This document shows, piece by piece, positions 3,792-32,227 of a DNA stretch of 33,484 nucleotides. The stretch is from a virus: IMG/VR virus record IMGVR_UViG_3300024062_000033, positions 1 through 33,484 of that record; one strand, given 5' to 3'. Numbering within the stretch: the stretch's first letter is position 1; each line of letters begins with the position of its first letter. Made by a program: the position numbers and the translations under genes. The notes beneath the pieces are model-generated. The model was given only the letters and a program-made list of their open reading frames with translations. It searched no databases and was not told where the DNA came from.

Positions 3792-3873
3792 TATATCTTT
3801 CAGATTTGCCATCTGCAATTAGGCAAGTATTTCTGTTAGTGAGCAGTTAATTCACAATTGATTTATTTGTAAA

Positions 3874-3890
3874 ATTTAAAATTTAATAAG
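3874..3890 (+). promoter_or_regulatory. A/T-rich leader motif shared with the major tail gene
   Basis: ATTTAAAATTTA (3874-3885) lies exactly 5 nt before the capsid ATG. The identical 12-mer is at 31632-31643, also 5 nt before the ATG of the probable major tail gene. No Shine-Dalgarno is present. It probably provides an unstructured, efficient ribosome-entry leader for two highly expressed virion genes. The rest of the 99-nt gap holds TTTATTTG (3862-3869), one mismatch from a Bacteroidota -7 box, with no clear -33 element. Confidence 0.45.
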
Positions 3891-4982
3891 ATGGCAGCAT
3901 TAGCACCAGCACAAGCTAGTTGTGTAGTACAATTACAACTAGCCGACATTATGGGTTCAGCCAATCCAGTACTCCACGAAGTACAAAAAAATGGCTTTAC
4001 AACAGCATTAGTTTCAGATGTGAATAGACAAGGATTTGTAATCAATGCACAAGCAAATGGTTCAAGACCACAAGATACATCAAAGCGTAAAATCCAAGTT
4101 CGTTACAGAGCTGGAAATTGCGATTCAGTATCAAGTGGTGAGATGGTTTGTACAGATGAAGATGCAACAGAAGGTGATCCTTATTCTTACCAAGATGTAG
4201 AAGTTAAGCACTACAAAAAGTCAAAGCAAGTAAAATTGTCTAAAACTGAATTCTTGGATTTATGTAGTGGAATTACAACAGAGCAAACCTTGAGAACTGC
4301 TGAACTAGCAGCCGATTTAGTGCGCCAAATGGAACAAGATTTAATTACTGACTATTTAGCAGCGTTGAATACTTATTCTGATGGAGATGATCCTACACCA
4401 GCATCTACAGAAGAAAAAACAATCTCATTGTTTTCTGCTACTGCTGTTCCACAGCCATTTGCTTTAAATTTCGTTTCTAACGAATACAGCAAGAAAGGCT
4501 ACATGGACAATTTCATCATGGTAGGTGGTTACCAAATCAATTCTTGGATTAAATCTCAAGGTTTATTTGTTGGTAACGTAGATGGTGCTGATATTACTAA
4601 AACCAATTTCGATTCTAATGCATACATGAGTTCTGCATACGATGTAATTGCTCGTGCAATTGGAGTTGATACTGAAGATCGTATGGCTTCTTGGATGCCA
4701 GGCGCAATTCAAAGAGTTGATTGGTTGAAGTATGCACCAGAAACTGGCCTAGCTAGAAATACTGATGAAATCTTCAAAGGCACTATCAATTTAGGTGGTG
4801 AAGAATTTGACATATTAATTACTGACCAAGATTGCAACGATTTCGTGACAATTCAGTTGGCTAAAGGATATGGATTATTCATTCCAGAAGCTGGTGTATT
4901 TGGTGGTACTTGCAAAGGTCAAGGAACATTATTGAACTGGATTCTTGATTGTGGCGCATTATCTTGTGCAACAATTAAGTAA
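3891..4982 (+). CDS. probable major capsid protein
   Basis: A 363-residue protein directly downstream of the scaffold-like gene and followed by a strong terminator. It has its own 99-nt leader with an A/T-rich initiation motif, and Arg CGT codons recur, consistent with high expression. The body alternates helices and strands with DVEVKHYKKSKQVKLSKTEF in the first half, a pattern of capsid E-loop/P-domain type. The N-terminus (AQASCVV) resembles that of the probable major tail protein (CAASCAV). No HK97 prohead protease is visible nearby. Assignment rests on position and expression signals; another abundant virion subunit is the alternative. Confidence 0.65.
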   Translation: MAALAPAQASCVVQLQLADIMGSANPVLHEVQKNGFTTALVSDVNRQGFVINAQANGSRPQDTSKRKIQVRYRAGNCDSVSSGEMVCTDEDATEGDPYSYQDVEVKHYKKSKQVKLSKTEFLDLCSGITTEQTLRTAELAADLVRQMEQDLITDYLAALNTYSDGDDPTPASTEEKTISLFSATAVPQPFALNFVSNEYSKKGYMDNFIMVGGYQINSWIKSQGLFVGNVDGADITKTNFDSNAYMSSAYDVIARAIGVDTEDRMASWMPGAIQRVDWLKYAPETGLARNTDEIFKGTINLGGEEFDILITDQDCNDFVTIQLAKGYGLFIPEAGVFGGTCKGQGTLLNWILDCGALSCATIK

Positions 4983-4988
4983 GTAACT

Positions 4989-5008
4989 TTAATTTTGGGT
5001 TAGCATTG
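4989..5008 (+). promoter_or_regulatory. capsid 3'UTR segment complementary to the major-tail-gene leader
   Basis: TTAATTTTGGGTTAGCA (4989-5005), 6 nt after the capsid stop, is the exact reverse complement of TGCTAACCCAAAATTAA (31603-31619) in the 5' leader of the tail gene at 31649. In RNA the pairing extends three more positions (5006-5008 with 31600-31602) as U-G, U-A and G-U. The segment sits directly before the terminator hairpin, the usual layout of a 3'UTR-derived small RNA. Seen directly; the regulatory role is inference. Confidence 0.45.
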
Positions 5009-5009
5009 A

Positions 5010-5046
5010 GGGGTGGTGGTTTATGCCATCACTCCTTTTTGTTTTT
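5010..5046 (+). terminator. Rho-independent terminator after the capsid gene
   Basis: GGGGTGGTGG (5010-5019) pairs with CCATCACTCC (5026-5035) across a 6-nt loop: ten pairs, two of them G-U. It is followed by TTTTTGTTTTT (5036-5046). This is the clearest terminator in the window and separates head genes from the fibre/lysis block. Confidence 0.85.
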
Positions 5047-16499: not shown

Positions 16500-16913
16500 A
16501 TGGACATACAAAAATTAACAGACAAGGAATTAAGCACTTTAATAAAGGAGTGCAGAGAAGAACTGCAAGATAGAAAAAACAATCTTGATAATGTTTTGCT
16601 GATTGATGATTTGCAGATATACAAAAGCAAATATGCACGACTGACTTTATTCTACGATTTTTGTAAATCAGTTTATTCTATTAGCGAAAAGGAATTAAAG
16701 CAAAAAAATCAAAGCAAAAAGAAGAAGAACATAAGAAACGCAGTAATAAATTATTTGCTTACTCAAGGATTTAGCCATCAAGATGTGGTTGATGAGTTTA
16801 AGATGGCCAGAACAAGTTTGAGCAGTCCAATTAGCTATCACGAAAAGTATTACAAGCTGGACAAGAACTACACCGATATTTTTGAGGATGTAAAACAATT
16901 TTTTGAGGATTAG
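16500..16913 (+). CDS. hypothetical protein with C-terminal HTH-like region
   Basis: 137 residues: an N-terminal helical, charged region (LTDKELSTLIKECREELQDR), a Lys-rich linker (QKNQSKKKKNIR) and a predicted HTH (YLLTQGFSHQDVVDEFKMAR) followed by TSLSSPISYHEKYY. The C-terminal end EDVKQFFED is repeated as a remnant at 17735-17764, after the next gene. It is probably a regulatory or replication-associated DNA-binding protein. Family not recognised. Confidence 0.55.
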   Translation: MDIQKLTDKELSTLIKECREELQDRKNNLDNVLLIDDLQIYKSKYARLTLFYDFCKSVYSISEKELKQKNQSKKKKNIRNAVINYLLTQGFSHQDVVDEFKMARTSLSSPISYHEKYYKLDKNYTDIFEDVKQFFED

Positions 16914-16915
16914 AT

Positions 16916-17704
16916 ATGGCAAAAATAAATTTAGATAAATATTACACATCAAAAGAACTTGCGAAACATTGTATTGATGTAGTGAATAGTTTAGGATTAG
17001 AAATAACCGAAACCATTGAACCGAGTTCAGGAAATGGAAGTTTTAGTTTGCAAATACCTAACTGTATAGCTTACGATATTGCACCTGAACACGAAAGTAT
17101 AAAAAAACAGGACTTTTTAAAACTAAACCTACCACATAAAAAAGGTAGATTATTTATTGGAAACCCACCTTTTGGAACAAGAAATACATTAGCTGTTAAG
17201 TTTTTTAAACACGCTTGTAAAATGGCTGACTATATTGCTTTTATTTTACCTATAAGCCAATACAATAATAACCAACAAATGTATGAGTTTGATTTAATTC
17301 ATTCGGAAGTATTACCGCTGATTGAATATAGTGGTATTGAGTTACTGTGTTGTTTTAACGTATATAAGAGACCTGAAAATGGTATAAATACAAAGGCAAT
17401 AGACTACAAACTGAATGATGTTTTTGTTGGAGAATATCGTAGAGGTGGAACATATAAAATACTTAAAAACTTTGATTTTGCAATGAACACTTATGGGGCA
17501 AGTATTGGAAAAGAAGTTGCTGAAATAGGAACATTTTGCCAAGAAAATTATGTAATTATTAAAAATGAAACATACCGTGAAAGGATTTTAGAAGTGATGC
17601 GAAAAACCGACTGGAAGAATTTATATCCGTTTATTTCTTCGCCTAAAATTCAGACTTGGAAGATTTATAAATACTTAAAAGAACAAATACCTGAATTGAA
17701 TTAA
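16916..17704 (+). CDS. N6-adenine DNA methyltransferase (gamma-type layout)
   Basis: 262 residues. The SAM-binding region IEPSSGNGSF (34-43) comes first and motif IV NPPFG (83-87) follows, the gamma order. YYTSKELAKHCID at the start is motif X-like. Downstream, IAFILPISQ is motif V-like. There is no clear long target-recognition domain beyond ~150 residues, so it may be a compact specificity module. No restriction partner is adjacent. The gene is bracketed by a 30-nt imperfect direct repeat derived from the previous gene's 3' end, indicating that it was inserted by recombination. Confidence 0.8.
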   Translation: MAKINLDKYYTSKELAKHCIDVVNSLGLEITETIEPSSGNGSFSLQIPNCIAYDIAPEHESIKKQDFLKLNLPHKKGRLFIGNPPFGTRNTLAVKFFKHACKMADYIAFILPISQYNNNQQMYEFDLIHSEVLPLIEYSGIELLCCFNVYKRPENGINTKAIDYKLNDVFVGEYRRGGTYKILKNFDFAMNTYGASIGKEVAEIGTFCQENYVIIKNETYRERILEVMRKTDWKNLYPFISSPKIQTWKIYKYLKEQIPELN

Positions 17705-17722: not shown

Positions 17723-17764
17723 TTTAAAATTTACGAAGATGTCAAACAATTTTTTGAGGATTAA
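17723..17764 (+). pseudogene. remnant of a second allele of the 16500-16913 gene (3' end only)
   Basis: Read in the frame ending TAA at 17762-17764, this gives FKIYEDVKQFFED; the intact gene ends DIFEDVKQFFED. Over the last 30 nt (17735-17764 versus 16884-16913) 27 bases match, and all three differences are synonymous, including TAG/TAA. Synonymous-only divergence points to an orthologous allele shaped by coding selection and not to a fresh copy. No start codon or upstream body remains. Confidence 0.65.
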
Positions 17765-24540: not shown

Positions 24541-24575
24541 GGATTTATGCCTAAATTACTAGGTGTTTTTTTTAT

Positions 24576-24583
24576 TATCTTTG
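24576..24583 (+). promoter_or_regulatory. TATCTTTG -7 box before the tape measure
   Basis: An exact TAnnTTTG match in the 68-nt gap (24541-24608), preceded by CCTA-aattac-TAGG and eight T, a short hairpin that could be a weak terminator. No -33 TTG at 19 nt. It would start a transcript at ~24590, directly before the tape measure ATG. Confidence 0.5.
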
Positions 24584-24608
24584 TAACATCACCAAGTAAA
24601 TCTATTGT

Positions 24609-31401: not shown

Positions 31402-31414
31402 TTGTTTATCTTTG
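31402..31414 (+). promoter_or_regulatory. TATCTTTG -7 box before the major tail gene block
   Basis: TATCTTTG at 31407-31414 within TTGTTTATCTTTG, the same 13-mer as at 12976-12988. No -33 TTG at 19 nt. It would start a transcript for the 31430 gene and the probable major tail gene. Confidence 0.5.
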
Positions 31415-31429
31415 TAGAAATTGACAAGT

Positions 31430-31594
31430 ATGAAAGTATATGATACATGGCACAATGGAAAAGAAGTGGTAAAAACCAAAGAGCAATTCGAAGTGGCCAA
31501 CAAACTTTATCCAGATAGATTTGTGAAGTCAAAGCCAAATAACGAATTACCGAAAAAGAAAAAAGAAAATAAAGAAGCCGAGCAAGGCGAATAA
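31430..31594 (+). CDS. small lysine-rich protein before the major tail gene
   Basis: A 54-codon frame (ATG 31430, TAA 31592-31594). It reads YDTWHNGKEVVKTKEQFEVA then YPDRFVKSKP and a Lys/Glu tail (PKKKKENKEAEQGE). It resembles the small basic gene at 2874 in size, position before a virion gene, and a [N/Y]PD[K/R][W/F] core followed by a Lys tail. Function unknown. Confidence 0.5.
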   Translation: MKVYDTWHNGKEVVKTKEQFEVANKLYPDRFVKSKPNNELPKKKKENKEAEQGE

Positions 31595-31599
31595 AAACA

Positions 31600-31643
31600 T
31601 AGTGCTAACCCAAAATTAATTTTTTTTTATAATTTAAAATTTA
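31600..31643 (+). promoter_or_regulatory. 5' leader of the major tail gene: complement of the capsid 3'UTR and shared A/T motif
   Basis: TGCTAACCCAAAATTAA (31603-31619) is the exact complement of 4989-5005. A T-run follows, then ATTTAAAATTTA (31632-31643), the same 12-mer 5 nt before ATG as at the capsid gene. Base-pairing by a capsid 3'UTR RNA would end ~30 nt before the start codon, so it could alter leader folding or stability more than block the start itself. Confidence 0.45.
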
Positions 31644-31648
31644 TCAAA

Positions 31649-32227
31649 ATGGCATTATGTGCAGCAAGTTGTGCAGTTAGCGTTCCAAGTTTCCCAAACG
31701 CTGGTTGTGAAATCGAAACAAGAAAGGCTGGGATTCAATATTTAGGACTAATCAAATGTGATTATGTTTTTGCAGACATTACCGATCCAACTGAATGGGC
31801 ATCGGCAGTAGCTGCTGACAATGTACACATCACTACTGAAGGTATTGGTGCTAAACCAGAAACTACAAAGGTAAGCATGAAACTTTCTTCATGCCGACCA
31901 GAGCAGAAAGTTGGTGAAACACACACGATTACTTTCAGAACTTATGGTGTTGATACGGCTGCCGATACTGATTTCGCAGTTCATAACAATGCAAAAAACA
32001 ATTTAGGTGCATACCGATTGTTTTACATCGGTTGTGATGGTTTATTTTATGTTCATCCAGAGTACGCTACAGAAAGCGCTGGATTTCAAGTGTCAGAAAA
32101 CAAGTGGGATTACATTATGAATGAAGATTCTAATGAACCAGCGTTTTATGACATTGAAGTTTCTTTTGATTACATCGGCATTGTAGGTGGAATTGCCTTG
32201 CCAGGTGTTATGGAAGAATTAGCATAA
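31649..32227 (+). CDS. probable major tail protein
   Basis: 192 residues with seven cysteines and a beta-rich body (VHITTEGIGAKPETTKVSMK; ETHTITFRTYGVD), ending in FYDIEVSFDYIGIVGG, all in the style of tail-tube subunits. Own promoter box and A/T-rich leader suggest high expression. The start CAASCAV resembles the capsid start. It is placed after the baseplate-type genes and before the portal, which is unusual for a tube gene, so a minor virion role cannot be excluded. Confidence 0.55.
   Translation: MALCAASCAVSVPSFPNAGCEIETRKAGIQYLGLIKCDYVFADITDPTEWASAVAADNVHITTEGIGAKPETTKVSMKLSSCRPEQKVGETHTITFRTYGVDTAADTDFAVHNNAKNNLGAYRLFYIGCDGLFYVHPEYATESAGFQVSENKWDYIMNEDSNEPAFYDIEVSFDYIGIVGGIALPGVMEELA

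Follow-up and report, generated by a model that had tools for sequence, protein, structure and literature searches.

Phages need set head:tail protein ratios, and the DNA described here raises the question of whether two presumed virion genes are linked through RNA, the 3′UTR of one being complementary to the translation leader of the other. The window that we analysed is an entire linear IMG/VR virus record of 33484 nt. In it, TTAATTTTGGGTTAGCA at 4989-5005 (+ strand) has its exact reverse complement at 31603-31619. No other perfect inverted pair in the window is as long as this 17-nt match, which extends to 20 of 20 pairs (4989-5008 with 31600-31619), with G-U at two columns. The first element lies in the 3′UTR of the presumed major capsid gene (3891-4982, + strand, 363 aa), directly before a strong intrinsic terminator (5008-5037, + strand), and the second in the leader of the presumed major tail protein gene (31649-32227, + strand, 192 aa), where it ends 29 nt upstream of the ATG at 31649. 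A first-pass annotation of the sequence had described these sites and pairs, the adjoining terminator and a distance of ~30 nt to the tail-gene ATG, all of which we found again. However, it placed both copies in leaders, whereas the capsid-side copy belongs to a 3′UTR and only the other to a leader. The names capsid and tail are putative labels kept from that annotation, with no profile, PDB or structure-search support: neither protein gave a convincing PHROGs, Pfam or PDB match, and their structure models (pLDDT 27) were useless for identification.

Windows simulated under a third-order Markov model held on average ~0.11 perfect inverted pairs of 17 nt or longer, and 13 of 120 such windows had at least one; the first-pass annotation had estimated 0.03-0.15. 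When noncoding segments alone were simulated the longest pair measured 16 nt, with none of 60 simulations reaching 17. Bacterial 3′UTRs that pair with leaders are known from icaR, hbs and hly (PMC3868564, PMC7821165), and extended complementarity of the icaR and hbs type, between a 3′UTR and a translation leader, is present in the window. Rfam returned no match at the curated gathering score anywhere in the window.

Protein-guided scans of viral contigs yielded a single relative, on two contigs from one metagenome (L001 and L017/L019). Its capsid protein is 91% identical to that of the window (L001) and its tail protein 89% (L017/L019), whilst 4-fold sites are ~50% diverged. The contig ends of the relative overlap by 167 bp, and because this overlap is only 97.6% identical, L001 and L017/L019 may be sibling strains rather than one genome. 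The comparative evidence thus comprises two genomes, one of them possibly sibling contigs. Phage isolates had only the portal C-terminus in common with the window, at 35-37%. Matches to the 17-mer occurred in 13 other viral contigs, with none of the matching loci coding for a homologue of the structural proteins in the window, and L022, which matched a looser pattern, was judged unrelated by inspection.

Terminase and tape-measure genes are recognisable in the window, and its methyltransferase region matches mainly phages of Bacteroidota (Flavobacterium, Cellulophaga, Polaribacter). The sequence TAnnTTTG is the sigma-A -7 box consensus of flavobacteria (PMC9723704). Such boxes are found upstream of late genes in the window and, together with the methyltransferase-region matches, make a Bacteroidota bacterium the likely host. 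To our knowledge, this phylum does not use Shine-Dalgarno sites.

On the linear record the two sites are 26.6 kb apart. This is probably not their true separation, because the record is linear while the genome ends adjoin: the contig coordinates of the relative indicate that the two ends of the window meet across ~2.7 kb absent from the record, which in the relative hold the portal C-terminus and the genes that follow it. The distance is probably ~9.6 kb instead, within one co-directional gene run; in the relative, tail leader and capsid 3′UTR are ~9.6 kb apart, and those genes that are visible in between share one strand. The genes seen between the two sites of the window are likewise all co-directional, and from 31620 to 4982, as far as the window covers this stretch (~2.7 kb absent), there is neither a strong terminator nor a noncoding TAnnTTTG box. 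Upstream of the tail leader, a -7 box TATCTTTG (31407-31414, + strand) that is kept in the relative is the predicted promoter of the tail-leader transcript, and would start it just upstream of a short ORF of 54 aa (31430-31594, + strand; 75% identity over residues 1-32). The capsid leader lacks a full box and a strong terminator was not found before 5008, so one transcript may hold both sites. From this arrangement, the sites are probably the 5′ part and the 3′ end of one late operon, and may be the two ends of a single operon mRNA instead of involving a separate 3′UTR-derived sRNA. At the place of the terminator, L001 has an 11-pair stem of different bases followed by a U run, as read from its sequence.

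Both sites have homologues in the relative, with 4 changes in the UTR element (window TTAATTTTGGGTTAGCATTG; relative TTCATTTTGGGTTGACATTA) and 6 in the leader site (reverse complement in the window TTAATTTTGGGTTAGCACTA; in the relative TCAATTTTGGATTGACATTG). Although both sites changed, 18 of the 20 pairs are kept. Columns 14 and 15 are double compensatory (A-U to G-C and G-C to A-U), at columns 2, 11 and 18 a one-sided change left the pairing intact, and the pairs at columns 3 and 20 are broken. The first-pass annotation held that uncompensated change in related phages would speak against its proposal; in this one relative the pairing instead survived, with compensation. If the 4 + 6 changes fell at random, at least 18 pairs would persist with a probability of 0.0035 for a transition share of 0.33, of 0.025 for 0.6 and of 0.35 if all changes were transitions; 9 of the 10 site changes are transitions, a class that makes up 28% of the background changes at 4-fold sites and 39% of those in noncoding DNA. 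Two or more double compensations would by themselves arise with a probability of ~0.08-0.14 (transition shares 0.33-0.8), and they are weaker evidence than the retention of pairs.

Moreover, on the coding strand the two sites are each other's best duplex partners in both genomes. When the UTR served as query, the tail leader came first at -26.6 in the window (next -18.5) and at -23.4 in the relative (next -19.8), and with the tail leader as query the UTR came first at -27.8 and -21.9, respectively. In neither genome did any of 2000 dinucleotide shuffles reach the energy of the duplex (z -7.4/-7.1 and -6.8/-5.9). Cognate duplexes (-26.6 and -23.9) are stronger than those formed by swapping sites between genomes (-21.3 and -16.6), and of the 108 complementary pairs with a mappable counterpart in the relative, this one ranks best by combined energy. 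The capsid gene's own leader was considered as a second target of the UTR and is unsupported: the duplex reaches -11.8 in the window, placing this leader eighth among the leaders, and -8.2 in the relative.

What the pairing might do is suggested by the fold of the tail leader. An arm at 31597-31607 (+ strand), overlapping the pairing site, is predicted to pair with the start-codon region at 31650-31660 (+ strand), with P ~1.0 in all contexts at both 37 and 20 C. With the pairing site blocked, opening the start costs 2.6 instead of 7.7 kcal/mol, and this drop of 5.1 kcal/mol is the largest among 52 genes given the same fixed block (-49..-29). Start-sequestering folds are not rare in themselves, with P at least 0.97 in 4 of the 52 genes. 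In Flavobacterium johnsoniae, translation is affected by structure in the start region (PMC6847099). In the relative the anti-start helix is weak (P 0.01-0.8) and blocking the pairing site lowers the cost from 4.0 to 3.4 kcal/mol, a gain of 0.6; as read from the sequence, all three leader changes within the anti-start arm keep the anti-start pairs.

As a whole, the best explanation, which we hold tentatively, is a conserved pairing of 3′UTR and leader RNA that releases the tail start codon. The sequences show the complementarity, its first rank in both genomes and its compensated survival; we infer that the two RNAs meet, that the effect is activation and what purpose it serves. The tail leader would by default form an OFF hairpin, with its arm bound to the start region. 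The 3′ end of the late transcript, that is, the capsid 3′UTR before the terminator, would pair with this leader and capture the anti-start arm in a 20-bp duplex, acting within one and the same operon mRNA or, as a fragment that ends at the terminator, on other copies. With the arm held in the duplex, the A/U-rich stretch where ribosomes load (-29 to -1) would stay free and the start codon would be released, such that tail synthesis would rise once transcripts extending beyond the capsid gene exist. Release is favoured because the tail leader is predicted to sequester its start codon in a hairpin, which pairing would open; it is our best guess from modelled folds rather than a conserved finding, because the helix of the relative is weak and its gain only 0.6 kcal/mol. 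A narrower version, in which the late structural operon of a dsDNA phage loops so that the capsid 3′ end pairs ~9.6 kb away with the tail leader, close to the 5′ end, and opens the tail start codon, we consider unlikely. If true, it would confine efficient tail translation to completed transcripts or to their presence. Of the RNA circuit proposed in the first-pass annotation, the RNA-RNA pairing is supported by its compensated survival in one relative; that it balances head and tail levels, we infer. A role as a trans-acting terminator, the duplex being followed by U9 at 31620, was rejected as a conserved function, as the relative does not retain the U run (GAATTTGTTAAC).

The same conserved pairing could instead be negative, offering a substrate to RNase III or hindering early ribosome binding, so that completed late transcripts damp tail synthesis. 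A long perfect duplex would suit RNase III, and in Staphylococcus aureus the icaR 3′UTR pairs with its own 5′UTR, blocks translation and feeds RNase III (PMC3868564). The likeness to icaR extends to a 3′UTR pairing with a translation leader, possibly on the same transcript. However, the icaR system concerns a single gene, whose 7-nt motif pairs over the Shine-Dalgarno sequence and covers the ribosome-binding site (PMC3868564), whereas the phage duplex is 17-20 nt long, joins two genes ~9.6 kb apart in a likely host phylum without Shine-Dalgarno use, and stops 29 nt upstream of the ATG with the A/U-rich leader free. Simple blocking is argued against because the pairing site lies upstream of this loading stretch, and the start region in the window's fold is opened, not closed, by pairing. 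We regard a negative role as rather unlikely.

It is distinctly less probable that the conserved pairing protects an RNA end or processing site from nucleases, be it the capsid 3′ end beside its terminator or the leader that follows the 54-aa ORF. The site between the short ORF and the tail gene is a plausible processing point and the UTR element abuts the terminator stem, and hbs and hly provide precedents (PMC7821165). In hbs of Bacillus subtilis the two UTRs that pair, over 14 nt, belong to one transcript, as those of the phage might, but a single gene is involved and its role, protection from RNase Y, was experimentally shown (PMC7821165). In hly of Listeria monocytogenes the 3′UTR of one mRNA likewise pairs with the leader of another, but these are separate transcripts of a host genome (PMC7821165), whereas the phage sites probably share one operon. 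Against protection, no processing site is known here and no sequence feature singles it out.

A chance inverted match caught in neutral decay would be similarly improbable in our view. Complementary pairs are numerous (228), and ~0.11 perfect pairs of this length are to be expected per window. However, both arms are noncoding in a window whose noncoding share is 1857 of 33484 nt, and the pair is still the best in a genome ~50% diverged at 4-fold sites.

Least probable is a shared DNA-level site in opposite orientations (a promoter -7 box, regulator or recombination site), an alternative raised in the first-pass annotation: as DNA both window copies do hold a full sigma-A -7 box, the perfect Bacteroidota TAATTTTG, which occupies 4990-4997 and, in the other copy, lies on the - strand, but this sole recognisable DNA motif is absent from both sites in the relative (TCATTTTG and CAATTTTG), whose two copies differ from each other at 4 of the 20 columns, two of these keeping G-U and two being broken. 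Transcription from a promoter at 4990 would immediately reach the terminator at 5008, and no inversion was seen, gene order and strand being the same in both genomes. Because the box is lost at both sites of the relative, RNA pairing fits better than a DNA site; the pairing is better kept than the motif, which modestly favours RNA.

Control of virion-protein mRNA by a pairing phage RNA is also seen with STnc6030 of prophage BTP1, but that RNA is antisense to the tailspike gene itself (PMC12197685), whereas here a capsid 3′UTR would pair with a leader of the same strand. A limited literature search found no case of same-strand pairing between a capsid 3′UTR and a tail leader in a dsDNA phage. 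Little is known of how late translation is tuned in Bacteroidota phages, whose hosts do without Shine-Dalgarno use, and a conserved 3′UTR-to-leader pairing, if true, would constitute an RNA link between two presumed virion genes.

Other leaders in the window have features of their own. The presumed capsid and tail genes share an A/T-rich leader type, and their leaders with the first codons (3848-3908 and 31606-31666) are 75% alike over 61 nt, ungapped. Further upstream, the presumed capsid leader holds a strongly conserved stretch at 3801-3846, CAGATTTGCCATCTG.AATT.GGCAAGTA.TTCTGTTAGTGAGCAGT, with a homologue before the capsid gene at 4957 in L001. Either TTGCC/GGCAA could fold together or TGCCATCT could pair with the start region AGATGGCA, making this a possible two-state leader. 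Upstream of the tape-measure gene (24541-24608) a terminator-like hairpin and U run are directly followed by TATCTTTG; the layout is identical in the relative, with different stem bases (GGGTGTA/TACACCC). A near-identical leader, ACAAAAAAACAAAACAATG, stands before four separate genes (7276, 9464, 11097 and 12020). Lastly, a 35-nt direct repeat (89%; 16878-16912 and 17729-17763) that copies the end of the preceding gene flanks a methyltransferase-like ORF (16916-17704), and looks like the trace of a duplication or insertion.
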